This document shows positions 1 through 56,618 of a stretch of 64,000 nucleotides of DNA, in pieces (the first letter of the stretch is position 1; each line of letters begins with the position of its first letter). The DNA comes from Terebella lapidaria (lineage: Eukaryota > Annelida > Polychaeta > Terebellida > Terebellidae): the NCBI GenBank assembly GCA_949152475.1, contig OX424569.1:22419170-22483169 (forward strand), in the 5' to 3' direction. The notes beneath the pieces were generated by a model. It had not been told where the DNA came from. It was given only the letters and a program-made list of their open reading frames with translations, and searched no databases. The position numbers and the translations under genes are program-made.

Positions 1-2024
1 ATGAACAGATAAGCAGATAGGGGACATCCTTGCCTTACTCCACGTTCAATATTGAATCCTCTCGAAGAGTAACCATTATTTATTATAACACTGTTTATAT
101 GTGTGTACAGAATCTTTACCCATTTAATGAGGTTCCTACTCAAGTTAAAAGACTTTAGACTGTCAAATAGAAATTGCCATCTTACTGTATCGAAGGCTTT
201 TTCAAAGTCGATTAGAAGAATTATAGCAGAGAGATTTCGGATTTTGCAATAATGAATAATGTCTTCCGTTGTTCTAATATTTTCACCTATATATCTGCCT
301 TTTATATATGCATTTTGGTCATTTTTTATGACCGTGGGTAGGAGTGGGGCTAAAGTTTGTGCGATTATTTTAGCTATTATTTTATAATCCGTTGCAAGTA
401 AACTCAGGGGTCTCCAATTTTTTAGATGTAGTCTATCTTTCCCTTTTTTGGGTATTAATGTTAGAATGCCACGCTTCTGATTTATTGATAATTCGCCCTT
501 CTCGAAGGCGTAGGCGATTGATTCTTTCACTAAGGTCTTTATATCAGGCCAGAAGAATTTGTAAAAGTCGCTTGATAGGCCATCTATTCCTGGTGTTTTT
601 CCATTTTTCAAATTTTTAAGGGCATTGCCGCATGATGTTTCAGTTATAACTATGTTACTGTCTTGATTTTGGTTAGGGGTTAATCGTGGAATGTTGCGGT
701 TGTTTAACATATGCATATAGTGTTCATGGTTTCTGGGGTTTTTGCTTGTTTCCTTGTAGAGATTTTCGTAGAATATTCTTTCTTGCTCAAGGATTTCATG
801 GGGATGCACAATGCTTTTTCCATTTACAGTTAGCTGCGTTATTGTTTTGTTAACATAGTTCCGCTTTTCTAGATTTAGGAAATAAGAAGTATTCTTTTCA
901 CCTTCTTCGAACCATTGCGCTCTGGATCGCATTATGACACCGCTTGCGTGTTCTAATTTTAAGCTATTTAATTCTTGCTCATATGCTTTTAATTGCTCGT
1001 TATTCTGGTCTATATTTACACCATTAGCCAGGTTTTCGTGCAAGTTTTTAATTTTATTCTCGAGGTCTGATTTAGATTTGGCTAGATCAGCCGATTTATG
1101 TTTACTGTACATTATTGTGGCATTCCGAATTTCCATTTTGATCATTTCCCACTTTAATCCTTTATCTTCAATGTTGTATTTATCAATATTATCCTGTATA
1201 ACTTTTTTTATGAGGGTTATATAGCGAGTGTCTCTTAACAGCATGTTATTAAATTTCCAATACCCGGGGCCGCGTTTTGAATTGGGTGATCCCTTTAAAC
1301 TAAGTTCTATGAGGCTATGATCTGACAAGGAACATGGCATGATATCTGTCTTGTCGATTGTATTGATTAGATGATCTGAAATTAACCAGTAATCTAAGCG
1401 ACAGTATATGTTTTTTGCTTTACATTGCCATGTGAACATGAACTTGCTTTCATTTAAAACTCGCCATATGTCGCTTAGCTGGTAGGATTCCATTAAACTT
1501 TCCATACACTTTCTAAATCTGAATGAGCTGTTCATGCTCGTATTGCCTCCTTTCTTATCTAGGGATGGGTCGAGAACAATATTGAAATCGCCTCCTAGTA
1601 TGAGATTTTTTCCGTCGTACTTAGTCAGACAGTCCATTAGTTTTTCTATAAAACGTATTTGGTTATTTTCGCTTAGCTGCGTTGGTGCGTATACGTTTAC
1701 GAGCACAAAAACATTGTTTAGACACGAAATCTCAAGAATTATGAAACGACCTTCTGAATCTTTAAAGTCAGATATTATTGTATATTCTAGGTTTCTGGGT
1801 ATTAGAATTGCTACACCTTTACTTCGGGGAGTCCCGTGGGCAAATACAATATCCCCGCCCCATTCGTTTTTCCATTTATTTTCTATATCTGGAGAGCTAT
1901 GTGTTTCCTGTAGGAACGTTATTGCTTTGTGCTTATTAGCGATGGTAGAAAATATGCTGATTCGCTTTCTTTTGTCTGTTCGTATGCCGCGCACATTAAG
2001 AGAATTTAAGGCTAAGTTATCCAT
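1..2024 (-). CDS. LINE ORF2: AP endonuclease plus reverse transcriptase (partial)
   Basis: The frame is open for 674 codons from an ATG at 2024 to the left edge. The N-terminal APE-type endonuclease shows SLNVRG, the catalytic-Glu motif LQETHS, NVYAPT, GGDFN and the terminal SDHSLI, in the normal order. A linker with the WFEEGEKNTSYF motif follows, then the reverse transcriptase: TPGIDGLSSDFYK, KNWRPLSLLATDYKI, the first catalytic Asp in LIDFEKAFD, and GVRQGCPLSAYLF close to base 1. The second catalytic motif (F/YADD), thumb and C-terminus lie outside the window. The wording of the LQETHS and WRPLSLL blocks is that of the L1/Tx1 clade. The enzyme would nick target DNA and prime cDNA synthesis on it. 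No stop or frameshift was seen, so the copy could be active if the missing part is also intact. Confidence 0.9.
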   Translation of the reverse strand, partial: MDNLALNSLNVRGIRTDKRKRISIFSTIANKHKAITFLQETHSSPDIENKWKNEWGGDIVFAHGTPRSKGVAILIPRNLEYTIISDFKDSEGRFIILEISCLNNVFVLVNVYAPTQLSENNQIRFIEKLMDCLTKYDGKNLILGGDFNIVLDPSLDKKGGNTSMNSSFRFRKCMESLMESYQLSDIWRVLNESKFMFTWQCKAKNIYCRLDYWLISDHLINTIDKTDIMPCSLSDHSLIELSLKGSPNSKRGPGYWKFNNMLLRDTRYITLIKKVIQDNIDKYNIEDKGLKWEMIKMEIRNATIMYSKHKSADLAKSKSDLENKIKNLHENLANGVNIDQNNEQLKAYEQELNSLKLEHASGVIMRSRAQWFEEGEKNTSYFLNLEKRNYVNKTITQLTVNGKSIVHPHEILEQERIFYENLYKETSKNPRNHEHYMHMLNNRNIPRLTPNQNQDSNIVITETSCGNALKNLKNGKTPGIDGLSSDFYKFFWPDIKTLVKESIAYAFEKGELSINQKRGILTLIPKKGKDRLHLKNWRPLSLLATDYKIIAKIIAQTLAPLLPTVIKNDQNAYIKGRYIGENIRTTEDIIHYCKIRNLSAIILLIDFEKAFDTVRWQFLFDSLKSFNLSRNLIKWVKILYTHINSVIINNGYSSRGFNIERGVRQGCPLSAYLF

Positions 2025-2896
2025 GATGTATAGTTGTGAAGTAGGTCGGTACTGGTTAGTATGTATGATGAGAAACACAAAATATAAAGGACAGTCATTA
2101 GAGTAATGATGAACATCTTAGTTAGCATTTTAATTAGTGCAGACCGATGTGGCGTGCGATGCTCTGAGATACTGCCATCATAGTGTGACATAATTGTGTG
2201 AGTGATTGCACAGGGATGTGGCATTAGTGATAACACTGTGAGGGGATTACCGTTTGGACTGGAGGGCCCACGCCGACAGTAAGCTAGGCCAAGTACAAGC
2301 ACAAGCTCACCTGCAATCCCAGACAGACTGAAGAAATGGGCACGCCAGTCACCGACAACAATACTCACAGTTTGGTACCATGCAACCGCCATTTCAGCTT
2401 ATACATATTTCTTTTTGATGTATTGATTACACAGAGACATACGTATGGATGTACAATTACATATTACACGTGAGGACACATCCACAGATACCTATGCTGT
2501 CACAAACTAGAATTCATGGCTATTTATGGGCGATGTGAGGAAGATTACCGTTGGGACTGGAGGTTCCACATCGACAGTCAGCTGGGCCAAGTACAAGCAC
2601 AAGCTCACCTGCAATCCCAGACAGACTGAAGAGATGGGCACGCCAGCCCGCGGCAAAGGTACTCACCAAGGACACACATTCATTTTTTGTATACTATGCT
2701 GTACCACTATACTGGATCTCGCCTGAGGGTACATGATATAAGGCACGTACATTTTATACTACGTCTATAGATCGCCTGATATATTAACGGATGTACGACG
2801 TTGTCTATAATAGAAATAATACAAAAAAAGAAAATTACTAACCTAGTAGTAAGAGTACGTTTGGTACAGAACTTTAAAACTGATGAAGTTTTTCCT
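2025..2896 (-). other. LINE inter-ORF spacer with a duplicated ~134-bp unit
   Basis: The spacer between the esterase stop and the ORF2 start has no long minus-strand frame of recognised type. It is unusually long for a LINE inter-ORF region and contains two copies of a ~134-bp unit (2237-2370 and 2534-2667). The rest, including the stretches 2371-2533 and 2668-2896, shows no feature I recognise. Confidence 0.55.
2237..2667 (-). repeat. Two copies of a 134-bp unit with splice-donor-like ends
   Basis: Copies at 2237-2370 and 2534-2667 match over most of their length, with the same central block AAGTACAAGCACAAGCTCAC on the + strand. Read on the minus strand, both begin with a strong donor-like GTGAGTA and both carry GATTGCAGGTGAGC in the middle. 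Both also share the peptide-like string FSLSGIAGELVLVLG. Splicing is inferred only; no acceptor partner is obvious. Confidence 0.6.
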
Positions 2897-3547
2897 TTAG
2901 GACTTGTCCAACTGACCTCGTAGTCTTGTAACCGTACCGTCGAAGAACAGTTTCAGTGCTGAGGTTCCTTTGTAGCTGAGATGGAGTCCGTCACGCGCGA
3001 ACATGGTACGGTCGACGGTTTTGTCTTGTTGGATGAAGGGCCTCCACGTGTACAGGAAGTGACAACCGCGCGACTTGGATAGTCTACGGAGGCGCGTATT
3101 GACTTCCTGACGGACGGCGTCTTCCGTGGGTGTATCCTTTGGACGGGGTATTATGGCGGAGATGGCGATCTTTGCGAGTGGATTGAGCACTTTGATTTCC
3201 TGCACCAGCTGATCGTAGACTTGCGTGATGTGTTCGGCCGAGCAGGATGCAAGGTTATTGGTCCCGACGTGCAGTATAATCAGTTTGAAAGATTTTACTC
3301 TGGCGCCGTACATTCTGATGTGACGTTTCAATGTTTCAATTCGTGCGCCAGGAAATGCTTGAACACAAGTGTATCGGGTATTTCTGATGAATTTACAGAT
3401 ACTATCGCTCAGAATGGTGTAATTGTTCCCAAGATGCCCGGGCCACTTGTATAGAGTGTGTCTGTAGTGGCACTTAGGTCCTGTGAGTTTAACGTGCATA
3501 TCGTCATAAATATGACGGATAGGACAGTACCGTTTTGAAGGCGGCAT
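2897..3547 (-). CDS. LINE-encoded SGNH/GDSL-type esterase
   Basis: This 216-residue frame carries the four SGNH hydrolase blocks in order. Block I is ILSDSICKFI with the nucleophile Ser49 (the usual Gly before DS is Ser). The block II glycine is in PGARIETLK (about 67). Block III is LHVGTNNL with Asn97. Block V is DGLHLS with Asp186 and His189. It resembles the esterase domains of CR1/L2-type ORF1 proteins and of PAF-acetylhydrolase-like SGNH enzymes. Such domains are thought to act on membrane lipids or acyl groups, but the substrate is unknown. It lies 31 bp downstream of ORF1, so it would need re-initiation or an internal entry site. All catalytic residues are present, so it is probably an active enzyme. 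Confidence 0.82.
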   Translation of the reverse strand: MPPSKRYCPIRHIYDDMHVKLTGPKCHYRHTLYKWPGHLGNNYTILSDSICKFIRNTRYTCVQAFPGARIETLKRHIRMYGARVKSFKLIILHVGTNNLASCSAEHITQVYDQLVQEIKVLNPLAKIAISAIIPRPKDTPTEDAVRQEVNTRLRRLSKSRGCHFLYTWRPFIQQDKTVDRTMFARDGLHLSYKGTSALKLFFDGTVTRLRGQLDKS

Positions 3548-3578
3548 CGTTTCGAGTCACTGTGATATCAGTCTGTGT

Positions 3579-4916
3579 TCACTGTAGTTTGTTCCGGATG
3601 CTTTTCAGCAGCTCGCCGAGTTGATTCTGGCCTGTCCAGATTGGGTCGTCGGCTTTCCTTACCGCTTCAAGAGACATGCCAATCCCCCAGAATTTGTCGG
3701 TAGGTGAGGCTTCAGCGAGGGTAGTGTTACCTGTCGACACGAGGAAGGAACACAAGTTTTTGTTCTGATCGAACTTGGCTTGGAGGCCTTTTTCCATCAC
3801 CCTCGGCGCTATTTCTAGCCACTTTTTATCGTCGTAGTTGATCTTGTTTGCTATGGCTTTCTGGGCTGCGGGGTCATCGGCGTTCAATATTGCGTTTGCA
3901 GCTCCCGTGTCGTTGGCGTGGAGCGCTAGCTGATGAAGGTAGAACTGTTCGGAGCAGTTATACAAGGTGCCGTTTATCTCGATGTCACAAGGATAGTGGT
4001 TGGATAATGGAGAGTTGCGTCCCCAGAAATATGTGGTCTCATTTATGGTCGGAGTGGACAGTTTTCGGGGGTCGAGGTCATCGGGAAGGAGATGCAATGT
4101 TTTCACTGTGTACGGTATGTCAAAAATCACAAGTTTGTCCTCTCGGATGTAGCAGTGGTCTTTGTATTTTGACATGGATTTTGCAGCAGACAATATCGGC
4201 GTCAGAACTTTCCTGCGTGCTCGTATCTCCGCCGGGTAATGTCGAGTGATGTAGATATCGGACTGCTGGGGCTGTGATTGGTCAGACTCGTCAGGTTGTG
4301 TGTTTCTTGCGTTCCACACTTTTTGCTTGTCGCTTGACCGCAGGAAACTGACAATGATGGGCCTCGGCTTGACTGTTCTGTGGGTCTGTCGTCTGGACGT
4401 GATCTTAGGACCCACTCGATGAACACGGTCGAAATCGATGTTGTCTGGATCAAGCTTCAGTGAAGTTTTCAGGTAGATGCGGACTGTGGCTTCAGATTGT
4501 AGCTCACTTTCCCATGTTTTTTCGGGAAGTCCGTGGATCAGCAGCTGTTTGCGCATAGAATATGACTCTAGGAGAAGGACCTTGTCATGTACATAAGCCT
4601 TGTCGGTTTCAAGTTTTTCGATTTGTTTGTGCAATCGTTCATTTTCAACAACAATGTCGTTGATTTGCTGATCATGCTTGGATACGTCCTTTGTTAGGAC
4701 ACTGAGTTTTTCCTTGACGCCCTCGATGTCAATCTTTACCTCCTGTATCTGGGCGGTCAGGCCGCTGTACATTTCTTGTGCCCACCGCGGAGCGTTGGCC
4801 AGTTCCTGCTTTGGCATTTTGTTAGCTTCACAGAGTGCTGGTGATACTTGTGAGCGATTGCGTTTCCTAGAGCTTGAGGGGGTGGAGCCCTGTGTGGTAG
4901 TATTGTTACTTTCCAT
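3579..4916 (-). CDS. LINE ORF1: coiled coil + RRM + CTD fused to NADAR (YbiA-like) domain
   Basis: This frame has 445 residues. Residues 1-40 are Ser/Lys-rich with basic KRNR, and about 55-115 form a heptad-rich coiled coil. Residues 118-200 match the L1 ORF1 RRM (SYSMRKQLLIHGLPE, then FDRVHRVGP and RPIIVSFL), and about 205-270 are the L1 C-terminal domain (ARRKVLTPILSAAKS). Residues 293-445 are a NADAR domain: FWGRNSPLSNHYP, the acidic CSEQFYLH, DKFWGIGM and NQLGELLKSIRNKL. All hallmark positions of the NADAR/DUF1768 family are kept. ORF1 proteins bind LINE RNA as nucleic-acid chaperones; NADAR enzymes act as N-glycosidases on ADP-ribose-type substrates. The fusion is unusual. The start is the first ATG before the basic N-terminus. 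Confidence 0.85.
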   Translation of the reverse strand: MESNNTTTQGSTPSSSRKRNRSQVSPALCEANKMPKQELANAPRWAQEMYSGLTAQIQEVKIDIEGVKEKLSVLTKDVSKHDQQINDIVVENERLHKQIEKLETDKAYVHDKVLLLESYSMRKQLLIHGLPEKTWESELQSEATVRIYLKTSLKLDPDNIDFDRVHRVGPKITSRRQTHRTVKPRPIIVSFLRSSDKQKVWNARNTQPDESDQSQPQQSDIYITRHYPAEIRARRKVLTPILSAAKSMSKYKDHCYIREDKLVIFDIPYTVKTLHLLPDDLDPRKLSTPTINETTYFWGRNSPLSNHYPCDIEINGTLYNCSEQFYLHQLALHANDTGAANAILNADDPAAQKAIANKINYDDKKWLEIAPRVMEKGLQAKFDQNKNLCSFLVSTGNTTLAEASPTDKFWGIGMSLEAVRKADDPIWTGQNQLGELLKSIRNKLQ

Positions 4917-5196
4917 ACAACAGTCTGTGTAGCTATGTATGTGACCACCGTCAGCCGGTCACGGTTCGCTGCGTCTTCCTCGCCGCGATGTATATTGTGT
5001 ATGGGCAATGCGAATGTCTTGCGTAAAATGTCGATTTTTTCTATCCGAAGATTATGTTATGTCTGCTGGGTGAACACACATCTTTAGACAGTTACTGTGT
5101 TGTGAGAGTCACATCCTTTGCGAATCTTACTGCGTTTATCGGCAGTTTTCTGCAGAGCACTTTGAGATTACACGATCGGCGCTGCCATGCTTTATA
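4917..5196 (-). promoter_or_regulatory. Putative LINE 5' untranslated region
   Basis: This non-coding stretch lies upstream of ORF1 on the minus strand. LINE promoters normally sit here, but I see no specific element. The end is set only by the start of the tandem array at about 5197. Confidence 0.35.
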
Positions 5197-5490
5197 TCCA
5201 ATAAGTCTATTATTGACCTCAATAAAAATAGTTAAGATGAGAAACAATTATTATTGAGCTCAACAAGGTTAAGGTTTTGTCCGGTAGAAATTTCTGGGTG
5301 TAACCGAATAAGTTAACTTTATTTTTACATGTTAAGTCTATTATTGACCACAATGAAAATAGTTAAGACAAGAAATATTTATTATTGGGCTCAACAAGGT
5401 GAAGGCTTTGTCCAGTAGAGATTTTATGGCTGTGACCAAATAAGTTAACATTATTTTTTTGCTAGTTAAGTCTATTATTGATCACAATAG
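5197..5490. repeat. ~131-bp minisatellite, about 2.2 copies
   Basis: The phrase AAGTCTATTATTGAC recurs at about 5203, 5334 and 5466, followed each time by CAATRAAAATAGTTAAG-like sequence and a TCAACAAGGT block. The period is about 131 bp and the third copy is cut short where the next array starts. Confidence 0.8.
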
Positions 5491-5504: not shown

Positions 5505-6560
5505 ATTGATCAACTTTTACTTTGAATTTCAACTTGAGACCATGTTTGGCACAAATTATGAGTTAAATTATAACTTATGGTGAAAAATTCGATCTGGCTC
5601 CAATTTCGTCATCTTGAAATGCAGTTTTGGTCAACTTTTACTTTGAATTTCAACTTGAAAGCATGTTTGGCACATATTATAAGTCAAAATATAACTTATG
5701 GTGAAAAGTTCGATCTGGCTCCATTTTCGTCATCTTGAAATGCAGTTTTGGTCAATTTTTAGTTTGAATTTCAACTTGAAACCAAGTTTGGCACATATTA
5801 TGAGTTAAAATATAACTTATGATGAAAAGTTCGATCTGGCTCCAATTTCTTTATCTTGAAATGCAGTTTTGGTAAACTTTTAGCTTGAATTTCAACTTGA
5901 AATCAAGTTTGGCACATATTATGAGTTAAAATATAACTTTGACGAAAAGTTCTATCTGGCTCCAATTTCTTCATCTTGAAATGCAGTTTTGGTCAACTTT
6001 TACATTGAATTTCAACTTAATACCAAGTTTGGCACATATTATGAGTTGAAATATAACTTATGACGAAAAGTTCTATCTGGCTCCAATTTCGTCATCTTGA
6101 AATGCAGTTTTGGTCAACTTTTACATTGAATTTCAACTTAATACCAAGTTTGGCACATATTATGAGTTGAAATATAACTCATGGCGAAAAGTTTGATCTG
6201 GCCCCAATTTCGTCATCTTGGAATGCAGTTTTGGTCAACTTTAATTTGAATTTCAACTTGAAATCAAGTTGGGCAGGTATTATGAGTTAAAATATAACTC
6301 ATGATGAAAGGTTTGATCTGGCTCAAATTTTGTCATCTTGAAATGCAGTTTTGATTAACTTTTACTTTGAATTTCAACTTGAAACCATGTTTGGCACATA
6401 CATGTATTATGAATCGAAATATAACTTATGGTGAGAAGTTCAATCTGGCTCCAATTTTGTCATCTTGAAATGCATTTTTGGTCAAATTTTACTTTAAATT
6501 TCAACTTGGAACCAAGTTTGTAAAATATTCTGAGTTGAAATATAAATTGGTGAAAAGATT
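5505..6560. repeat. ~121-bp minisatellite, nine copies
   Basis: The block TTTGAATTTCAACTTGAAAC followed by GGCACATATTATGAGTTAAA and GATCTGGCTCCAATTTCGTC recurs roughly every 121 bp, with starts near 5508, 5631, 5752, 5874, 5995, 6117, 6236, 6356 and 6478. The copies differ by point changes and small indels. No open frame is conserved. The array lies directly beside the 131-bp array. Confidence 0.9.
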
Positions 6561-7844
6561 GATCTATCTGTATTTTCGTTATTTTATCAAACATGTCGAA
6601 TGGAAATTCATATACATGTAAAGAGATTTCAGTGGTGATTTTGAATTCGACCTTCAATAACCTCGGAAAATCAGTGCAGCAATTTTGGTGGGGAAAAGAA
6701 AACAGTTGTGACTTGAGATTTAACATTTCTCTGGTAATCTTTTTTAGCCCTTGCTCTAGTTTTTCACACTTGACAGTGATATATTTGGGGCAACAGAGAT
6801 GATAGGGCTACGGGGGATACACCCAAGCGGTCGTAGGCGACCGGAAGCGTCTAGTTTTTTACCAGCAACATTGCGGAACGGCTGGCCTCCGTGGTTGAAC
6901 GTGGGACGTATCAGGGATTCCTCTTTCAAAGACCTGATTCCAATGTAAACATAAACAAAACCTTGCGCGCCTGTCAATCTTGGTGTAAACACTACTTTCA
7001 GCCTTCTGTTTCGGGTGAAATAGCACATAAATAGCCATGTGTATGCGATTTTGGGGATCATACTTGATTGTTTTGATATAATTTTTTAACTGAGCTGGCT
7101 TTTCAATTCGAACAAATATTAGTAACTACATGTATGTGCAAATGCCGCTTTAATATGATCAACTTGAGCGTTGATGATTTTGAGTGGTCAATTTCAAGGT
7201 GAATGTGGAATGTTAAAATGACATTTTTAAACTAGAATTCTGAGATTGTCTCAAACGAAGCTGTTGGAAAGCTACAAGCCCCTTAGACCATTATGGCCTC
7301 ATAAGCTAATTCGGTCACTTGACATCTGGTGTCCATCTGGCATCCATTGTCTGTCTGCTAGCAAAAAATCTCAGAATCCGCTCATACTCAAAGTTATGGC
7401 TACCTCAACATGTGCAAATTGGCTAATATTGAGACAACATTATTGTAGATGCATGTAGAGCTAAAGAATTGATGAGGTGCATCGTTTGATGATCTTGAAC
7501 TTGTACACGTGACCTTGAAAGTTCAGCTTGGGTCATGGCTTCTCCGTTTTGCGTAAACTGGCCTTCAGAGACAAAAAGCTCAGTAGAGCTTGAGCTTGTA
7601 TTATGAGCATTATATGTATGATTCGTGATGCCTTTTTTGATGGACTTTCAAGTAAACCTCAATTGACCTTATTATTCAATGTCCAGGTGCCAGGTTCCTT
7701 TGGCACAATTTATAACATCATTTAAAGAGAAATATACATGTAATTCTACTATCAGAGTTCTTGTCATACACATCGATTACCAAACTGAGAATCATTAAAG
7801 ATATTCTGTTTTAAAAGTCTACCCTCAACTTTATCAAATTTTAG
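6561..7844. other. No gene seen; probable intron of the SPAG1-like gene
   Basis: AT-rich, non-repetitive sequence with only short frames of random type. It ends at a pyrimidine-rich tract and AG that serve the next exon. I see no further exon of the gene here. Confidence 0.5.
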
Positions 7845-10930: not shown

Positions 10931-11247
10931 TATAGCTCGAAAGAATTTCTGCTGATTCATCCTTGAGGCTTTCATGCATATCTCGGACTTGGATTTTCGT
11001 TTTCATCAATATCTTGGAAATGGCGCGTCGAAATTTTGGACTTGTCGTCCTAGACAAATTTGTCTAAGGAGTATTAGGGATGACCTTTGACCTTGACCTT
11101 AAATTTGTTCACTGAGTCGGTATTTTTCCTTTTCGTCGATATCTCTGAAACGGTGCGCCGTATAGCAAAACGGACATTATTTTTGGACTTGATATTAAGG
11201 ATGAACTTTGACCTTAACCCGAAATTTTTTGCTGATTCGGCATTTTT
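10931..11247. repeat. Diverged copies of the ~148-bp 'TCGATATCTC' repeat
   Basis: Two degenerate units share GCTGATTC, ATATCTCGGA-like, TAGACAAATTTGTCTAAG and GATGACCTTTGACCTTGACC blocks with the array at 63.18-64.0 kb. The second unit is interrupted at its CATTTTT by the first HINE 5' end. Confidence 0.75.
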
Positions 11248-11929
11248 AGGTTACCGGACCTTTGGTCCGCTAACCTATTGGCATGGCGTTGCGTCCGGCG
11301 TCCGGCGTCGGCGTCGGCATCGTCCACATTTTTAGGTTACCGGACCTTTGGTCCGATAACCTATTGCCGTGGCGTTGCGTCCGTCGTCCGTCGTCGTCCG
11401 TCGTCGTCGTCCGTCTACATTTTTAGGTTACCGGACCTATGGTCCGATAACCTATTGGCATGGCGTTACGTCCGTCGTCCGTCGTCCGTCCGTCCGTCCG
11501 TCGTCCGTTCACATTTTTATCTTTAAAGTATGTGATCGAATCTTTCTGAAATTTTGCACAAAAATACCTAAAAATATTTCAAGGAAAGGTTTTTTTTTGT
11601 TTTTCGATTTTCGCATTTGTTTCAAAATGGCGGCCGTTTTCGACGAAAAATGCCTGATTTTGGACTTTGGCGGCCATTTTCTCAAAAACTGTTCAGTAAC
11701 TTTTTTTCTTTTTGATACACAACACTCCTCATATGTACTCCTGTGATGTGTATAAGTTTCGTTGCGCTTGAATTGCTCGAAGTGGGCCATTTTGGGCCAA
11801 ACTTGGCCCAAATGGGACTTTCCTATGTTAAATTTTCCTATGCTTTATAATGGGACACATTATGCCTTATATCTCACTTAATATTGAGATTAGAGACTAG
11901 GAATCAATTGTGGACATATAGGAAATGAT

Positions 11930-48732: not shown

Positions 48733-49629
48733 GTGGTCACCCGGACATCGAACGAGGACGATGCTGTGGGTGCTCGAGGAGCCCCCGGGGACAGTCACCC
48801 CGTCAACAAACTCGAGGAGGGTGACCTCGTGAAAAAACAACCTCAGATTGAGGAGGGTGACCTCGTAAAAAAACAACCTCAGATTGAGGAGGGTGACCTC
48901 GTTAAAAAACAACCTCAGAATGCTCAAAATTTTGCTCCGAATGCTCGAACCAACCTCGATCCAACCTCAAAATGCTCAGAATGCTCAAAACAATATCAGA
49001 ATGAAAAACAACCTGCCATACTTGATAAACGTCAAAATGAAGCGAAGTGCTGCCCAAATTTTCCAAAGCGCAAAGAGAATCGTGCTGAATCATGCACCAA
49101 GCCTTTGAAACTTCCCAATATCAGTTTGCTTGATAACGTGGATACTCCTCAAACTGTGGCATCAACATGTGGTACTACATGTACTAACACATCTCGACAA
49201 CAATCCACTTATTTTGTCTCTGTTCACACAATCAAGAGTTTGAAACTCAAACCTGAAGTTGTAAAATATCATGAAGAAAGTGTTCTTGGATCATTTCATC
49301 AAGGTGATGTTCACTTTCCAGAAATTAGCCGTGGTAGACAATGCACATGTAATTCTTTGGCTGCTTTGTGCAAGTTGAAGGTCATTGGCTCAAGTATGTT
49401 GAAATGTGGTGAAATCAATGATATACTCAACAAGGGAGATTGCATTTACAGGAAAGTTATCGAGAATTTAGCCCTGCATAATAAACTTTCCAATGTCTAT
49501 TTAAATTTCGAGGAATTGCCATCAGAGTTTGATATGTGGAATGTGCACTTCAAAGTGACCTTGTTGGATCGTACAAGTGGTATTTGTGGGAATCCAGAAT
49601 TTCCTCACGAGTTTGGGTTCAGTCTGTGA
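48733..49629 (+). CDS. Helentron N-terminal region: acidic repeats and C76-like cysteine protease (first half)
   Basis: The frame is open for 298 codons but has no good ATG near its start (it begins GTG after upstream stops), so the true N-terminus probably comes from an upstream exon. Near residue 29 a 13-residue unit, EEGDLVKKQPQI, is repeated three times (39-bp DNA repeats, 48815-48917). From about residue 190 the sequence FHQGDVHFPEISRGRQCTCNSLAAL matches the cysteine-nucleophile block of C76/OTU-like deubiquitinase domains found in Helentron proteins; the Cys is at about 204. The domain runs on past TGA 49627 in the same frame. The protein likely processes ubiquitin or the polyprotein. 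Confidence 0.65.
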   Translation: MVTRTSNEDDAVGARGAPGDSHPVNKLEEGDLVKKQPQIEEGDLVKKQPQIEEGDLVKKQPQNAQNFAPNARTNLDPTSKCSECSKQYQNEKQPAILDKRQNEAKCCPNFPKRKENRAESCTKPLKLPNISLLDNVDTPQTVASTCGTTCTNTSRQQSTYFVSVHTIKSLKLKPEVVKYHEESVLGSFHQGDVHFPEISRGRQCTCNSLAALCKLKVIGSSMLKCGEINDILNKGDCIYRKVIENLALHNKLSNVYLNFEELPSEFDMWNVHFKVTLLDRTSGICGNPEFPHEFGFSL

Positions 49630-49635
49630 AATGCT

Positions 49636-52443
49636 GTGGCAGATGGTATGTTACAAGCAAATTATGCTCTTTTGATGATAGGTAGTAGTTGTATGGCTCT
49701 ATCAAAATCTGGCAGAAATTATGTGTTAATTGATTCCCATGCAAGAGATTGTAATGGACGACTGTCCGAGTCAGGCAAAGCAGTAATGCTCAAATTCATG
49801 AGCATAGAAAAGTTATGTTCACACCTTCTGGATGTGACTTCTCAGAGTGCTAGAAATTTCCCTTTTGAAATGCAGCCTGTAGCAATTCATACAGAAAAGA
49901 TTGACACTCAACGAATCTTCACTAATCTTTCAATGCAAGCATACATGGCAGATCAAGCAAGAAAAACTAAACTTTTAAAAACACGAAAAACTAAAGTAGG
50001 CCCAACGAAAGGAGAAAAAAGAAGAATTTACTTCAAGAACATGATGAAAGCATATCGACAAAATACAAACTTCAGAGAGGCAGAACGAACTAGGCAAATG
50101 ACTAAAAAACGCACGATGAGAACAGATGCAAAGTACAGAGATGCAGAACGAACTAGGGAAGTTACTCAAAAACGCACCATGAGAACAGATGAAAATTACA
50201 GAGATGCTGAACGAGCTCATAAACGTACTATGAGGACAGATGTAAAGTACAGAGATGCAGAACGAAATAGGGAAGTTACTCAAAAACGCACCATGAGAAC
50301 AGATGAAAATTACAGAGATGCTGAACGAACTCATAAACGTACTATGAGAACAGATGTAAAGTACAGAGATGCAGAACGAAATAGGGAAGTTACTCAAAAA
50401 CGCACCATGAGAACAGATGAAAATTACAGAGATGCTGAACGAACTCATAAACGTACTATGAGAACAGATGTAAAGTACAGAGATGCAGAACGAAATAGGG
50501 AAGTTACTCAAAAACGTACCATGAGGACAGATGAAAAGTACAGAGATGCTGAACGAACTCATAAACGTACTATGAGAACAGATGTAAAGTACAGAGATGC
50601 AGAACGAACAAGGGAAGTTACTCAAAAACGTACCATGAGGACAGATGAAAAGTACAGAGATGCTGAACGAACAAGGGAAGTGACTCAAAAACGTACCATG
50701 AGGACAGATGTAAAGTACATAGATGCAGAACGAAATAGGGAAGTTACTCAAAAACGCACCATGAGAACAGATGAAAATTACAGAGATGCTGAACGAACTC
50801 ATAAACGTACTATGAGAACAGATGTAAAGTACAGAGATGCAGAACGAAATAGGGAAGTTACTCAAAAACGTACCATGAGGACAGATGAAAAGTACAGAGA
50901 TGCAGAACGAACTAAGGAAGTGACTCAAAAACGTACAATGAGGACAGATGAAAAGTACAGAGATGCAGAACGAACAAGGGAAGTGACTCAAAAACGTACC
51001 ATGAGGACAGATGAAAAGTACAGAGATGCAGAACGAACTAGGGAAGTGACTCAAAAACGTACCATGAGGACAGATGAAAAGTACAGAAATGCAGAACGGA
51101 CCAAGGAAAAGCAACAAAAGCAACAAAAAAGGAAATGTGATTTTTTCAAAGAAAGCGAGCGTGTTGCCAAAAAGCAAAAACGTCTACATCAATCAAACAA
51201 AAAAGTCGAACAACATAAAGACCGAAGGAGAAAATCACAGAAAAGGATGTCCTCTGATTTTGTGTACAGCGAAAATGCGTCAAAACGACAAAGATTATTC
51301 GGAAATAGCTTGGATGACTGCATTAAAAATTTCCATATCAAAATAGCAGAAGGCCCAATTTATGTATGTTGTTGTTGTCGTCAAACCTGTTTCAGGGAAA
51401 CTGTTCAAAAATCGTTCAGAATTTTATTGTCTCCTTCTGATAAGGACCTTGTCGAGAAATGTATTCTTAATTATTGTGATCAACAGGACACTCCCGGTGA
51501 ATGGATATGCAAAACCTGCTATGGATCTATAAAATCTGGTAAAGTTCCCAAGTTGTCAATGGCAAATAAAATGATGTTTCCGGAAAAACCAAAGGAACTA
51601 GAACTGTGCCCCCTTGAAGAAAGACTTGTTGCATTGCGTATTCCTTTTGTGCAAATCCGAGAATTACCGAGAGGTGGTCAGCTGTCAATTCGTGGTAATG
51701 TCGTCAATGTTCCGTGTGATATTGAACCAACCATTCGCACTCTACCGAGAAACTTATCTGAAAGTAAAACCATTTCTGTGCAACTTAAAAAGAAAGTATC
51801 GTTTGCCAGCTCTGTATTTACAGAAAATATTCGGCCACAAAAAGTATTGAATGCTGTGAAATACCTTCTGGATAATAGTCCTTTATACAAAGATGAAAAC
51901 ATTTCTGTAGACGATGAATGGACCAACAAAATAACCAGTGACAGTGATATCGAAACAATGGAATTGACTGGTGTAGCAGCAGAAATTTTAAACGACGATA
52001 TCGATGTGCCTCTACAGAAAGAAAATGAACAGGAAACACAAGAAAACACTTGTATCGACGACGATGACAACTTCAGTGAATTAGATGAGCGAGAACAAGT
52101 AATGGGTAACATGGACACACTCTTAGATGATGGAGACACATTTGATGATGACAAAATTTACACATTCGCTCCAGGAGAGGACCAGACACCAATTGCTATG
52201 TTTCAAGATGAAAATTCTGAATACTTAGCTTTCCCAACCATTTTTTGTGGTCACAAACGTCCAGATAATTCTGAAAGAGAAAGGTCTGTACATTACAGTG
52301 ACATTTGTAAATGGGAGCTCCGTTCCGAAGATCGCAGAGTAGCCATGTCGGTGCCCAACTTATTTTACAAAATGAAGAAGAATCAGTTGAAACAAGTTAA
52401 AGATAAAATTGGACTGGCTGTTCGTAGATGCAAAATGGGATAA
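49636..52443 (+). CDS. Helentron protein: protease second half, charged repeats, zinc-binding DUF6570-like region
   Basis: This 935-codon frame is in phase with the preceding one across TGA 49627, so its 'start' is artificial. Residues 1-80 complete the C76-like fold with the catalytic-His block YVLIDSHARDCNGRLSESGK (His about 35). Residues 149-491 are 17 copies of a charged unit (RTMRTDEKYRDAER), mostly as alternating 17- and 21-residue forms. Around 575-640 two cysteine clusters, YVCCCCRQTC and WICKTCYGSIKSGK, begin a DUF6570-like zinc region found before Helitron Rep domains (QIRELPRGGQLSIRGNVVNVP). An acidic stretch follows. The end, FYKMKKNQLKQVKDKIGLAV, is the start of Helitron_like_N; the frame shifts at A8 (52443-52450). 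Confidence 0.75.
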   Translation: MADGMLQANYALLMIGSSCMALSKSGRNYVLIDSHARDCNGRLSESGKAVMLKFMSIEKLCSHLLDVTSQSARNFPFEMQPVAIHTEKIDTQRIFTNLSMQAYMADQARKTKLLKTRKTKVGPTKGEKRRIYFKNMMKAYRQNTNFREAERTRQMTKKRTMRTDAKYRDAERTREVTQKRTMRTDENYRDAERAHKRTMRTDVKYRDAERNREVTQKRTMRTDENYRDAERTHKRTMRTDVKYRDAERNREVTQKRTMRTDENYRDAERTHKRTMRTDVKYRDAERNREVTQKRTMRTDEKYRDAERTHKRTMRTDVKYRDAERTREVTQKRTMRTDEKYRDAERTREVTQKRTMRTDVKYIDAERNREVTQKRTMRTDENYRDAERTHKRTMRTDVKYRDAERNREVTQKRTMRTDEKYRDAERTKEVTQKRTMRTDEKYRDAERTREVTQKRTMRTDEKYRDAERTREVTQKRTMRTDEKYRNAERTKEKQQKQQKRKCDFFKESERVAKKQKRLHQSNKKVEQHKDRRRKSQKRMSSDFVYSENASKRQRLFGNSLDDCIKNFHIKIAEGPIYVCCCCRQTCFRETVQKSFRILLSPSDKDLVEKCILNYCDQQDTPGEWICKTCYGSIKSGKVPKLSMANKMMFPEKPKELELCPLEERLVALRIPFVQIRELPRGGQLSIRGNVVNVPCDIEPTIRTLPRNLSESKTISVQLKKKVSFASSVFTENIRPQKVLNAVKYLLDNSPLYKDENISVDDEWTNKITSDSDIETMELTGVAAEILNDDIDVPLQKENEQETQENTCIDDDDNFSELDEREQVMGNMDTLLDDGDTFDDDKIYTFAPGEDQTPIAMFQDENSEYLAFPTIFCGHKRPDNSERERSVHYSDICKWELRSEDRRVAMSVPNLFYKMKKNQLKQVKDKIGLAVRRCKMG
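50098..51110 (+). repeat. Coding tandem repeat, 17 units of 51 or 63 bp
   Basis: Seventeen units begin KRTMRTD; the short form ends AERTH and the long form ends AERNREVTQ. Short and long alternate through much of the array, giving a 114-bp higher-order unit, while the last four are all long. DNA identity between units is high, suggesting recent homogenisation. Confidence 0.92.
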
Positions 52444-55400
52444 AAAAAATGACAGCTGGCCAGTTACTGCAACCAAATGCATTCACAAATTTAGTAAATT
52501 TAGATGAGGGCTTCTATATTTTCAAATCCATAAGAAATTCGCCTGCATATCTTGAAAAAAGGAAGAAGGATGTGTTTGCAATGATACGCCAAATTGGATT
52601 ACCAACATGGTTCGCATCTTTTTCTGCTGCTGACACAAAATGGCCAGATTTACTAAAAATTATTGGAAAATTAGTGGACAAGAAAGAATACACTGATGAT
52701 GATATTGAAGGAATGGATTGGACAGAACGAACAAGGCTCTTACAATCAGACCCAATTACGTGTGCTAGATATTTCAACAATCGAGTTTCAGTTTTCATTA
52801 ATTCTGTCCTTAAAAGTGACCATACTCCCATTGGAAAAATAAATGATTATTTTTATCGAGTAGAATTCCAACAGAGAGGTTCCCCTCACATTCACATGCT
52901 TATATGGGTAGAAAATGCACCTGTATTCGGCGAAAGTGACAATGCAGAAATAGTAAAGTTTATTGACCAGTATGTATCCTGTTCCAGTGACGTTGCTAAT
53001 TCTGAACAAATATTCAAGGGTCAAATGCACAAGCACTCGAAAACATGTAGGAAATATGGTAAAGCGATATGTCGGTTTGGTTATCCAATACCACCAATGC
53101 CAAGGACTATGATATTGATGCCTTTGGACCCTACGACAGATACTGATGATGATAATGATACTGATTCAGACCCGGACACAAATGCTGAAAGACTTCAAAG
53201 AATTGAAACCATGTTGGCTGAAAACAAAGATGGTATTAAATTGTCGTTTGGAAATTTTTTGCAAAAGCTCAGAATGACAGAACCTCAGTATATAAAAGCT
53301 ATTCGTAGTTCCATGAAAGATGTCAAAATATTTTTGAAACGTGACCCATGTGACATAAGGGTAAATGCTTATTGCAAACAGTTAATATCAGCTTGGAAGG
53401 CTAATCATGATTTGCAATTCATTTTAGATCCTTATGCATGTGCAATGTACATTGTCAATTACATCAATAAGTCTCAGAAAGGAATGAGTGCTTTATTGGA
53501 CCGAGCATGCAAAGAAGCCAGAGCAGGCAATATGGACATAAAACAAAGTGTTCGACATATAGGGAATATGTTTCTAAAGAGTGTTGAGGTTTGTGCTCAA
53601 GAAGCTGTTTACCTAGTCTTACAGGTGCCCCTTTCAAAATGTACCAGAGAAGTAATATTCATAAATACGTCACCACAAGCAGACCGAATTTTCATGTTGA
53701 AAAGTAAAACAGATTTGGAAGAATTGGCCTCCACAGACGTTGAAACAAAGAATATCATTGCCAGATATAGCCAACGTCCCCGGCAATTAGAAGATTGGTG
53801 TCTTGCGGATTATGCATCAAAGTTGAATGTTCAATATAATTCTACCAAAGCTACAAAAAATGTTGCAGAATATAATACAGATCTAGGATTCGACAAAGAA
53901 GCTGATATATATGACGAAAACAATGAAGTTGATGACAAAGAAAATGATGACAATATGAAGAAATCAAATATCATTTTAGCTTTACCAAATGGTACATTGT
54001 TCACCAAAAGAGCTAAATCTAGGGTCATTCGTTTTGTTAATTATAATCGTAAGTCGGACTATGAAAATTTTTGCCGGGAAAAGCTAATGCTGTTCTTACC
54101 ATGGAGGAATGAAGAAAAAGATTTGTGGGGAATATTCGACACATATGAGGAACATTTCAAAGCAGTGGAAAAAACAATCGGTGAGAAATATCAAGAATAT
54201 GCAAATTATACAGAAGTACTGGATGATGTTGCCGAAAAATCACATAATCTTCAAGACGAGCAGGTCTTTGACAATCTTATACCTGGTGCCCAAGAACAAA
54301 ATGCCCTAGATGAAGAGATTGGATCAGCAGAAAGCCAAAAATACATCTACTTTGACCCAAATCAGTGCTCTGAAATGCAGTCTGATTTTCTAGGCGACAA
54401 TATTGGATCAGCAGTTTCAGTGGCCAATGAGACATCCGTACCCAATAGACTTCCTCAAGCTGAATATTTGCAGTTAGTCCGGTCTCTCAATCGAAAACAA
54501 AGAGAATTTTTTTTACACGTTGTCCACTGGATAAAAACCAAAGAAGAGCCATTAAGGGTTATATTGACTGGCGGCGCCGGTGTTGGAAAATCTGTAGTTA
54601 CCAATACATTATATCAAACACTACATCGTTACCTTTGTTCTTGTGAAGGTGAAAATCCACTTGATTGCCGAATACTCCTCTTAGCTCCAACTGGTAAAGC
54701 TGCTTTCGGTATCCGTGGAACAACTATACATTCCGCATTGTTCCTACCAGTGAGTCAAGGTTATAAAGTTTGTAAACCACTAGACACGGAAAAGCTGAAC
54801 ACTCTTCGAACAAAGTATCGAAATCTTTCTGTAGTCTTCATTGATGAAGTATCTATGGTCGGCCATGACATGCTTAATTTCATAAACCTAAGATTGCAGC
54901 AAATCAAAGGAAATACCAAGGTCTTCGGTGGAGTGCACATGATACTAATTGGCGACTTGTGTCAGTTACAGCCTGTAGGTGATGGTTGGATATTCAAAGA
55001 CTTGATTTCTGGATATGGTCCACTTGCAACAAATCTGTGGAAGGAGTATTTCTCAGCTTTTGAACTTGACGAGATCATGAGACAGAAAGGTGACCAGCAC
55101 TTTGCGCTCTTGCTGAATCGTTTGCGAGAAGGTAAACATACTCAGAATGATATTGACACACTGAAAGAAAGAAAGTGTCAACCAGAAGACGAGTCCAAAT
55201 TCCTTGACTTACCTCATTTATTCACAACTAATGCAAAGGTGAACAAATTCAACAGTTCTCTCTTTGACAAAAGTTTGAACCAAAAAGTGACTATTCCTGC
55301 TTTGGATTCTATTTTAGGTGATTTGTCAAATAATGTCAAAGAAAAAATAATTCCGACAATAACTACAGATCCAACTAGGACAGCAGGCTTACGCAATCCT

Positions 55401-56618
55401 CTTAGAGTCTCACCCGGATTAAGATATGAGGTTGTTGCAAATATATCTGTTGATGATGGCCTAACAAATGGCTCTGGGTGTGTCCTAAAACATATTGAAT
55501 ATAAGATGAATACCACAACAAGACCAAGTATTTTGTGGGTCCACTTTGATAATGAGAAAATTGGTCAAGATCAGAGAAGAAAATATCGAGCATTATATTC
55601 TCCCCAAATTTCACCAGAATGGATACCAATTTTTGACATTAAGCGAAAGTTTACTGTGCGCAGAAATGTACATGCTGTCCGAATACAGTTTCCTCTAAGG
55701 TCTGCAGCAGCCAAAACAGTTCACAAAGCTCAAGGAGAAACATTGCCAAAGGTTGTTGTTCACTTGGGGTCAACTCGAAGAGACCATATTCATTATGTGG
55801 CACTAAGTAGAGCACAGAATATTGCAAATCTTCACATCTTAGAACTGAATGAAGACAAAATAGCAACGTGTGATGCTGTTACAAAAGAATTGGAAAGACT
55901 AAGGCAAGATGCTGCTGTCAAGCTTTGCTATTCACCCTTGTATCAGATGAACACAAACACCTTCAAGATTGTCTTTCATAATGCACGATCACTTCATGCT
56001 CATTTTCAAGATATAATGGCAGATGCAAATTTTATGTGTGCTGATGTAGTTTCATTTGCAGAATCTAGGTTGACTCAAAATGATCCAGATGATAGCTATA
56101 GCTTTGATCAATTCATTCCTCTCAGAAATGATGAAGCAATAGACGGCACATCAAAATGTCGACCTCATCATGGTTTGCTTTCTCTTGTCCAAAAGAAGCA
56201 CTCTGACCATTTTCTCATCTTCAGCCACTTCAGTTCTGTGTCATTAGAATTCACTTTCATCAAAACTGGTGACTTGTCGAATCCTATTCAAATAGTATTT
56301 TTATACAGATCACCTGCATTTTCATTTGAGATGTTCAAAGGTATAATGACAAAAGAATTATTGCGTATTGTTGACCCCACAATAAATCTAGTTATTTTGG
56401 GAGATTTCAATTATGATCATCGTGACAGGTCTCATTCTGGTCTAGAACAATATATGAACAATACCTTCAATTGTAGCAACAAAATGAATTCACCTACAAC
56501 AGATCATGGTTCAACATTAGATTTAATTTTCACAAACTTGGACTCGATATCGACAACCACATTAGAATGTCCTTGGTCTGACCACAAAGCAATAGTTGCA
56601 TATATCAATGAAATATAG
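52428..56618 (+). CDS. Helentron Rep-helicase-endonuclease
   Basis: This frame has 1396 codons. The listed ATG overlaps the previous frame and is probably not a real start; the Rep frame continues from the preceding ORF. GFYIFKSIRNSPAYLEKRK opens the Rep. The HUH motif is SPHIHMLIW (about 151-159), and the catalytic tyrosines lie in CAMYIVNYINKSQKG (about 335-350). The helicase is PIF1-like: Walker A GGAGVGKS (about 714), Walker B FIDEVSMVG, IGDLCQLQPVG, then HKAQGETL and VALSRAQ. After about 1176 a CR1-like endonuclease completes the protein: FKIVFHNARSLHAH, FAESRL, ILGDFNYD, TLDLIFTN and SDHKAI. All catalytic motifs appear present. It would nick, unwind and re-join DNA in rolling-circle transposition. 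Confidence 0.9.
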   Translation: MQNGIKKMTAGQLLQPNAFTNLVNLDEGFYIFKSIRNSPAYLEKRKKDVFAMIRQIGLPTWFASFSAADTKWPDLLKIIGKLVDKKEYTDDDIEGMDWTERTRLLQSDPITCARYFNNRVSVFINSVLKSDHTPIGKINDYFYRVEFQQRGSPHIHMLIWVENAPVFGESDNAEIVKFIDQYVSCSSDVANSEQIFKGQMHKHSKTCRKYGKAICRFGYPIPPMPRTMILMPLDPTTDTDDDNDTDSDPDTNAERLQRIETMLAENKDGIKLSFGNFLQKLRMTEPQYIKAIRSSMKDVKIFLKRDPCDIRVNAYCKQLISAWKANHDLQFILDPYACAMYIVNYINKSQKGMSALLDRACKEARAGNMDIKQSVRHIGNMFLKSVEVCAQEAVYLVLQVPLSKCTREVIFINTSPQADRIFMLKSKTDLEELASTDVETKNIIARYSQRPRQLEDWCLADYASKLNVQYNSTKATKNVAEYNTDLGFDKEADIYDENNEVDDKENDDNMKKSNIILALPNGTLFTKRAKSRVIRFVNYNRKSDYENFCREKLMLFLPWRNEEKDLWGIFDTYEEHFKAVEKTIGEKYQEYANYTEVLDDVAEKSHNLQDEQVFDNLIPGAQEQNALDEEIGSAESQKYIYFDPNQCSEMQSDFLGDNIGSAVSVANETSVPNRLPQAEYLQLVRSLNRKQREFFLHVVHWIKTKEEPLRVILTGGAGVGKSVVTNTLYQTLHRYLCSCEGENPLDCRILLLAPTGKAAFGIRGTTIHSALFLPVSQGYKVCKPLDTEKLNTLRTKYRNLSVVFIDEVSMVGHDMLNFINLRLQQIKGNTKVFGGVHMILIGDLCQLQPVGDGWIFKDLISGYGPLATNLWKEYFSAFELDEIMRQKGDQHFALLLNRLREGKHTQNDIDTLKERKCQPEDESKFLDLPHLFTTNAKVNKFNSSLFDKSLNQKVTIPALDSILGDLSNNVKEKIIPTITTDPTRTAGLRNPLRVSPGLRYEVVANISVDDGLTNGSGCVLKHIEYKMNTTTRPSILWVHFDNEKIGQDQRRKYRALYSPQISPEWIPIFDIKRKFTVRRNVHAVRIQFPLRSAAAKTVHKAQGETLPKVVVHLGSTRRDHIHYVALSRAQNIANLHILELNEDKIATCDAVTKELERLRQDAAVKLCYSPLYQMNTNTFKIVFHNARSLHAHFQDIMADANFMCADVVSFAESRLTQNDPDDSYSFDQFIPLRNDEAIDGTSKCRPHHGLLSLVQKKHSDHFLIFSHFSSVSLEFTFIKTGDLSNPIQIVFLYRSPAFSFEMFKGIMTKELLRIVDPTINLVILGDFNYDHRDRSHSGLEQYMNNTFNCSNKMNSPTTDHGSTLDLIFTNLDSISTTTLECPWSDHKAIVAYINEI

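Follow-up and report, generated by a model that had tools for sequence, protein, structure and literature searches.

Does a LINE of the polychaete Terebella lapidaria carry a genuine NADAR (YbiA-like) domain on its ORF1 protein and, if it does, is this domain likely to remove ADP-ribose? The question is raised by a stretch of 64,000 nucleotides (hereafter, the window), for which the original prediction, made from the letters alone, had placed an L1-type ORF1 fused to a NADAR domain at positions 3579-4916. These coordinates proved to be correct: ORF1 is read on the minus strand, from 4916 to 3579, and encodes 445 amino acids, translation of the plus strand of the same interval giving 16 stops. 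The features discussed below are collected in Table 1.

Table 1. Features of the apparent LINE and of its ORF1 protein (positions in the window).
Feature	Position	Strand	Basis
ORF2, APE-type endonuclease and reverse transcriptase, open at the window edge	1..2024	-	Pfam, PDB
Spacer from esterase ORF to ORF2, with direct duplication	2025..2896	-	sequence comparison
Separate SGNH/GDSL esterase ORF, 216 aa	2897..3547	-	Pfam PF13472, PDB 4c1b
ORF1, 445 aa: coiled coil, L1-like RRM region (weak), C-terminal NADAR	3579..4916	-	ORF list, Pfam, AlphaFold2, PDB search
NADAR domain, ORF1 residues 295-445	3582..4034	-	Pfam, NCBIfam, phrog, PDB, AlphaFold2, Foldseek
Ala356-Asn357 for Gly-Arg (G78, R79 in P. 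nicotianae)	3846..3851	-	alignment
Leu330 for the pyrophosphate-contacting Lys (K50 in P. nicotianae, K95 in E. coli C7)	3927..3929	-	alignment, PMC11543638
L1-ORF1p-like RRM region (weak), ORF1 residues 118-231	4224..4565	-	PDB search
Coiled coil, ORF1 residues 42-127	4536..4793	-	AlphaFold2 helix prediction

The fusion of NADAR to a LINE ORF1 is real and is confirmed by this analysis. The C-terminus of ORF1 is matched by the Pfam profile PF08719 over its full length (E = 4.8e-37; 128.1 bits vs a cut-off of 35.1), ORF1 residues 296-445 corresponding to positions 1-163 of the 163 in the profile, and all four motifs quoted in the original prediction were found in the ORF1 translation. A chance NADAR-like stretch is excluded by the Pfam E-value of 5e-37. 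The NCBIfam model TIGR02464 (riboflavin biosynthesis intermediates N-glycosidase) was matched over its cut-off with E = 4.4e-36 and phrog_1017 with E = 8.9e-40, while the PDB sequence search recovered two solved NADARs, 8bau (E = 5.4e-17) and 2b3w (E = 1e-5). The AlphaFold2 model of the domain, built with an alignment of 53 rows of NADAR relatives, reached pLDDT 96.2 and pTM 0.90 and is predicted to adopt a YbiA-like fold. Foldseek placed the NADAR of P. nicotianae (8bau) closest to it among solved folds (E = 3.7e-11, TMq 0.90, rmsd 2.0), followed by 2b3w (TMq 0.78), with no further solved structure at E ≤ 0.001; nidovirus polyproteins were also among the Foldseek matches.

The N-terminal parts of the protein are less clear-cut. 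Of the L1-type architecture proposed originally (coiled coil, RRM and CTD), the coiled coil is borne out by a long helix in the single-sequence AlphaFold2 prediction (block mean pLDDT 90-96 over residues 51-110), all coiled-coil-type Pfam matches in ORF1 being under their cut-offs; the RRM is weakly indicated, and the CTD was matched by no tool. In the single-sequence model of residues 1-291 (pTM 0.30) the coiled coil is the only reliable part, and the RRM stretch belongs to its low-confidence portion. When residues 110-291 were compared with 177,635 distinct PDB sequences, two matches were obtained at E ≤ 10, and both were to human LINE-1 ORF1P (E = 0.58 and 0.61), collinear over the RRM; in Pfam the same residues gave nothing at E ≤ 10, no RRM or L1 model included. 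The likeness of this region to LINE-1 ORF1P is specific but weak.

The pocket of the domain was read from an alignment of the window sequence with 171 NADAR relatives, none of which was dropped. These comprise 8 selected phage loci, 3 selected plasmid loci, the best 80 among 589 sequences confirmed in genome contigs of bacteria and archaea, and the best 80 among 292 confirmed in viral contigs, so the set consists of best-scoring prokaryotic or viral proteins, with eukaryotic and LINE NADARs absent from it, 8bau apart; in the latter, which is eukaryotic, Lys-Gly-Arg is present. A column was regarded as near-invariant if one residue was common to at least 93% of the 171 relatives, which held for 33 columns. 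The P. nicotianae numbering used here equals the PDB chain index minus 2, as checked by hand on E43, K50, R79, Y84, D86, W89, R93, E125, D130 and W133.

ORF1 keeps 27 of the 33 near-invariant columns, including E323, K353, W366, E402, D407 and W410, and to this extent it retains the NADAR hallmarks, as had been claimed; the claim fails, however, at the Lys equivalent to K50/K95, which is Leu, and at the Gly-Arg pair, which is Ala-Asn. The six lost columns (given as consensus, position and window residue) are W307H, M327L, K330L, F334A, G356A and R357N. Among the 171 best-scoring relatives, position 330 is occupied by Lys in 170, by Arg in one and by Leu in none; position 356 is Gly in every one; and position 357 is Arg in 163, Lys in 5, Gln in 3 and Asn in none. 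Taken as a triplet, these residues read KGR in 162 relatives, KGK in 5, KGQ in 3 and RGR in one, LAN being found in the window sequence alone. The lost Gly-Arg belongs to LGRxV.

The most columns lost by any of the 171 best-scoring relatives is 5, vs 6 in ORF1, and two relatives of similar divergence (L056 and L008) lose 5 each; the count of ORF1 thus tops the range without standing far apart from it, and part of the loss may be plain divergence. The columns lost by these two relatives are other than those lost by ORF1, except for W307, and both of them, together with a third one with nearly as many losses (L124), retain the Lys, the Gly and the Arg.

The structure of the P. nicotianae protein with ADP-ribose shows the pyrophosphates bonded by K50, R79 and R93, and also by W89, by W133 and, via water, by D130 (PMC11543638, as far as its accessible text goes). 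Of the 11 side chains listed there as surrounding the ligand, eight are kept in ORF1 (E43, K75, Y84, D86, W89, E125, D130 and W133), among them K75, a basic residue near the site, and the three lost ones, K50, R79 and R93, are precisely the basic ones bonding to the pyrophosphates. In the alignment, the ribose and adenine contacts remain. The catalytic Glu (E125) and E43 are kept as E402 and E323; both positions are Glu in 171/171 best-scoring relatives, 160 of which were reached through an EASP..D..W-type motif that itself contains the E125 position. Not all of these positions carry the same weight: the R93 column is variable among the 171 relatives (Arg in 44, Lys in 30, Ala in 29), as is that of D86, and Y84 is mostly Phe, so these three count little either way, and the weight falls on K50 and R79. 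Additionally, E323, W366, D407 and W410, mapped by spacing, match residues mutated in the SNA-3 NADARs and are apparently kept; the SNA-3 residues were described as homologues of YbiA N-glycosidase residues (PMC9303266, in the portion available).

Considering the retention of the catalytic residues and the adenine contacts along with the loss of the basic pyrophosphate contacts, we favour, with a probability of about 0.45, a NADAR domain with a changed ligand over one that efficiently hydrolyses guanine-ADP-ribose. It would either act on a ribosyl N-glycoside that has no bound pyrophosphate or serve the RNP as a ligand-sensing or ligand-binding module. L1-type ORF1p trimerises, and RRM domains of ORF1 proteins are thought to bind the RNA (PMC3905857, in the part consulted). 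The ORF1p considered here most likely coats the element RNA as L1 ORF1p does, and, given trimerisation, several NADAR copies would ride on each RNP, which would then display several such domains. The domain was presumably recruited to handle ADP-ribose or another ribosyl ligand, as others infer for NADARs of invertebrate RNA viruses, and in this lineage the pocket keeps the catalytic Glu, Asp and Trp together with the adenine contacts but no longer has the three basic side chains in contact with the pyrophosphate.

Next in rank, and unlikely in our estimation, stands a pseudo-enzyme or structural tail, the NADAR fold being then a mere scaffold that provides an RNA, protein or localisation contact in the ORF1p multimer. 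The pocket losses agree with such a role, as does the case of SNA-3 domain 1, which is without the residues tested (PMC9303266); yet the catalytic and distal-ribose residues are kept (27/33 near-invariant columns), and a pure scaffold would not need them.

A little less likely still is the canonical counter-defence enzyme put forward in the original prediction, namely an ORF1p NADAR that strips host-added ADP-ribose from element RNA, cDNA, target DNA or RNP proteins. In its favour, four E. coli and phage NADAR types and a myxobacterial YbiA hydrolyse guanosine-ADPr in vitro (PMC11125620), the same reaction is reported for eukaryotic members (PMC11543638), and the NADARs of animal RNA viruses (nidoviruses, as well as picornaviruses of annelids and bivalves) were proposed to reverse host macromolecular ADP-ribosylation (PMC9503650), each of these sources being cited from the text available. 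The nidovirus polyproteins among the fold matches and the preserved E402, E323 and Trp/Asp contacts point the same way. However, K95 of the E. coli C7 NADAR, the counterpart of K50, is largely conserved across the superfamily and is essential for efficient guanine de-ADP-ribosylation, and even the K95R variant, which hydrolyses in vitro, gives no rescue from DarT1 (PMC11543638); in ORF1 this residue is Leu, and the R79 equivalent is Asn. Because of these replacements, ADP-ribose removal by the known chemistry is unsafe to assume: of the counter-defence idea, the fusion stands, whereas the activity is plausible as ancestry and doubtful for the present version of the domain. Anyway, the mutant evidence on K95 comes from one bacterial antitoxin, and other groups might replace the lost ones in ORF1.

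The codons for residues 330, 356, 357 and 334 lie at least 2, 1, 2 and 2 base changes, respectively, from the consensus residue, and the three open frames contain zero stops in 1335 codons. Under neutral divergence of 1%, 2%, 3% and 5%, the probability of finding no stop in so many codons is 0.15, 0.024, 0.004 and 8.7e-5, respectively, in a model with substitutions only, uniform rates and no selection. Seven changes in 12 bases, counted in codons that were chosen after their loss had been seen, would hardly be expected from so little neutral time, and the pocket changes therefore probably predate this copy, having arisen in the lineage while the element was active. Decay of this one copy as their source was rejected on the codon argument, within the uniform substitution-only model; the frames of the single copy, examined for neutral decay, revealed none. 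The element looks intact and recently active. All statements on the pocket and on the element refer to this one copy, including those on L330, A356 and N357.

The remainder of the locus supports an otherwise typical LINE, as ORF2 lies downstream on the same strand. It starts at 2024 with an ATG just ahead of the endonuclease domain, runs for 674 codons without a stop to the window edge, and matches Pfam models of the APE endonuclease and RT; the best PDB matches of these first 674 codons are human LINE-1 ORF2p (E = 1.1e-58), and with L1 nearest among solved structures ORF2 is as expected for the L1/Tx1 group. Between the two frames lies an ORF absent from the original prediction, which starts 31 bases past the ORF1 stop codon and encodes a putative esterase (Pfam PF13472, E = 5.9e-14). 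Its best PDB match is 4c1b (E = 1.5e-7), the esterase of zebrafish ZfL2-1 ORF1p (PMC3905857). The catalytic Ser, Gly, Asn and Asp-His align to this structure (SDS, FPGAR, HVGTN, IAIS and DGLH), and the equivalents of H191 and S228 are kept as well. These two are transposon-specific positions, whose double mutation blocks the ZfL2-1 esterase activity (PMC3905857); the 4c1b numbering used was derived by hand as chain index plus 131 and agrees with S143, I144, T194 and R200 of that paper, in its available part. The esterase is not placed inside ORF1p behind a coiled coil lacking an RRM; it occupies its own ORF, with the RRM-type ORF1 separate. Such an arrangement is not unheard of in retroelements, since a GDSL esterase is present as an extra ORF in bdelloid LTR elements and in Penelope-like elements (PMC5408684, in the text available).

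Judging by order, strand and spacing, ORF1, the esterase ORF and ORF2 apparently make up one LINE which, to judge from the part inside the window, is of the L1/Tx1 group. That two nested or abutting elements meet here, ORF1 with the esterase on one side and ORF2 on the other, with the 0.87-kb spacer as the junction, is highly improbable: the spacer is long and contains a 132/133-bp duplication, and GC content is 46-50% over ORF1 and the esterase vs 34-39% over ORF2, but the frames lie on one strand in the canonical order, the ORF2 frame is uninterrupted from the ATG that shortly precedes the endonuclease domain, ORF2 is richer in AT than ORF1 in L1, CR1 and Daphne, too (PMC7140322), and NADAR-containing ORF1s are reported in Tx1 LINEs (PMC12477816), ORF2 here being nearest to LINE-1. 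The GC step, which is seen within positions 1-5000, was rejected as proof of a mosaic, the direction being the same in those other LINEs (PMC7140322, in its accessible part).

Several observations concern the non-coding parts of the element and its upstream flank. The spacer measures 872 bases, and its duplicated segments (2237-2368 and 2534-2666; 132 and 133 bases) are 87% identical. Read on the minus strand, each of the two includes CTTCAG...TTGCAGGTGAGC, which, by motif, we take to resemble 3' and 5' splice sites. Compared with 20 shuffled versions, the spacer has a somewhat better predicted fold (z = -2.9). Directly 5' of ORF1 there is a tandem array of a 121-bp unit in 8.7 copies with 88% matches (5506-6565), and a repeat of about 131 bp, in about 2.3 copies by hand count, occupies 5191-5488, likewise 5' of ORF1; these arrays may be promoter monomers in the 5'UTR of the LINE, or else an unrelated satellite.

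As to its relation to known systems, human LINE-1 shares with the element the APE and RT domains of ORF2 (E = 1.1e-58), the coiled coil of ORF1 and the weak RRM match. To our knowledge, it possesses neither a NADAR domain nor an esterase ORF. The P. nicotianae (8bau) and E. coli YbiA (2b3w) NADARs have the fold and most active-site residues in common with the LINE protein, from which they differ at the pyrophosphate site. The 216-aa ORF has its best solved relative in the ZfL2-1-type SGNH esterase of CR1/L2, RTEX and Penelope elements (PMC3905857), in contrast to which it is an ORF of its own, next to the RRM-type ORF1 of an L1-type element, and has SDS, not GDS, in Block I.

The original prediction knew of no described LINE with this architecture; however, the fusion is not new to print, since a 2025 paper on Ectocarpus TEs mentions, in one sentence of its available text, that several Crassostrea gigas families of Tx1 LINEs in Repbase seem to have YbiA-family NADARs in their ORF1s, and suggests RNA processing as the role of these domains (PMC12477816). 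These oyster elements, which can be likened to ours by description only, bear the domain in ORF1 of an L1-superfamily LINE, as here. The same source reports NADARs in an Ectocarpus Gypsy lineage (PMC12477816); an LTR retrotransposon with an acquired NADAR shares the acquisition, although the domain is located in Pol there and in the LINE ORF1 here. Among the titles and opening abstract lines listed from the open literature, no NADAR LINE beyond the oyster Tx1 ones and no L1/Tx1 LINE with a separate esterase ORF was found, and the word NADAR is absent from the accessible portions of two papers on mollusc LINEs (PMC10294476, PMC11203168). What appears to be new here is the pocket with lost conserved residues and the combination, in what is apparently a single element, of an esterase with an RRM-type ORF1. 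As a tentative and, on the whole, somewhat unlikely generalization, there may be a class of L1-type LINEs with two extra enzymes, namely an esterase of the transposon type, encoded by a separate ORF, and a NADAR in which the basic contacts to the pyrophosphate were replaced during activity, which would give ORF1p a new ribosyl-ligand specificity, as a hydrolase or a sensor, in the retrotransposition RNP.

The role of NADARs in animals is described as unclear (PMC11125620, in the part available), and no study known to us has tested whether LINEs counteract ADP-ribosylation by the host. An intact-looking element with a NADAR of its own provides a defined protein for assays; from the changes in its pocket, little or no guanine-ADPr hydrolysis and a different ligand are predicted.

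Relatives of the element were also searched for. As single sequences, a search that finds close relatives only, ORF1, the NADAR domain alone, ORF2, the esterase and an RT fragment had no confirmed relative among viral contigs. Within the 64-kb window, tblastn at E ≤ 1 revealed no further copies of ORF1 or the esterase ORF, returning the queries themselves and one weak match (E = 0.099), and ORF2 found only itself; Rfam yielded 0 matches at the gathering threshold, and 0 tRNAs were detected. Elsewhere in the window, a Helitron-type element is situated on the plus strand at 48733-56618: its first ORF contains DUF6570 and long imperfect repeats of a RDAERTREVTQKRTMRTDEKY-like unit, and the next one combines Helitron_like_N and a PIF1 helicase with an APE-type endonuclease at the C-terminus. 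Short ORFs overlap one another at 11087-11746; their translations are repeatedly YRTFGP.TYWHGVASVVRR-like, and the stretch is apparently a repeat.
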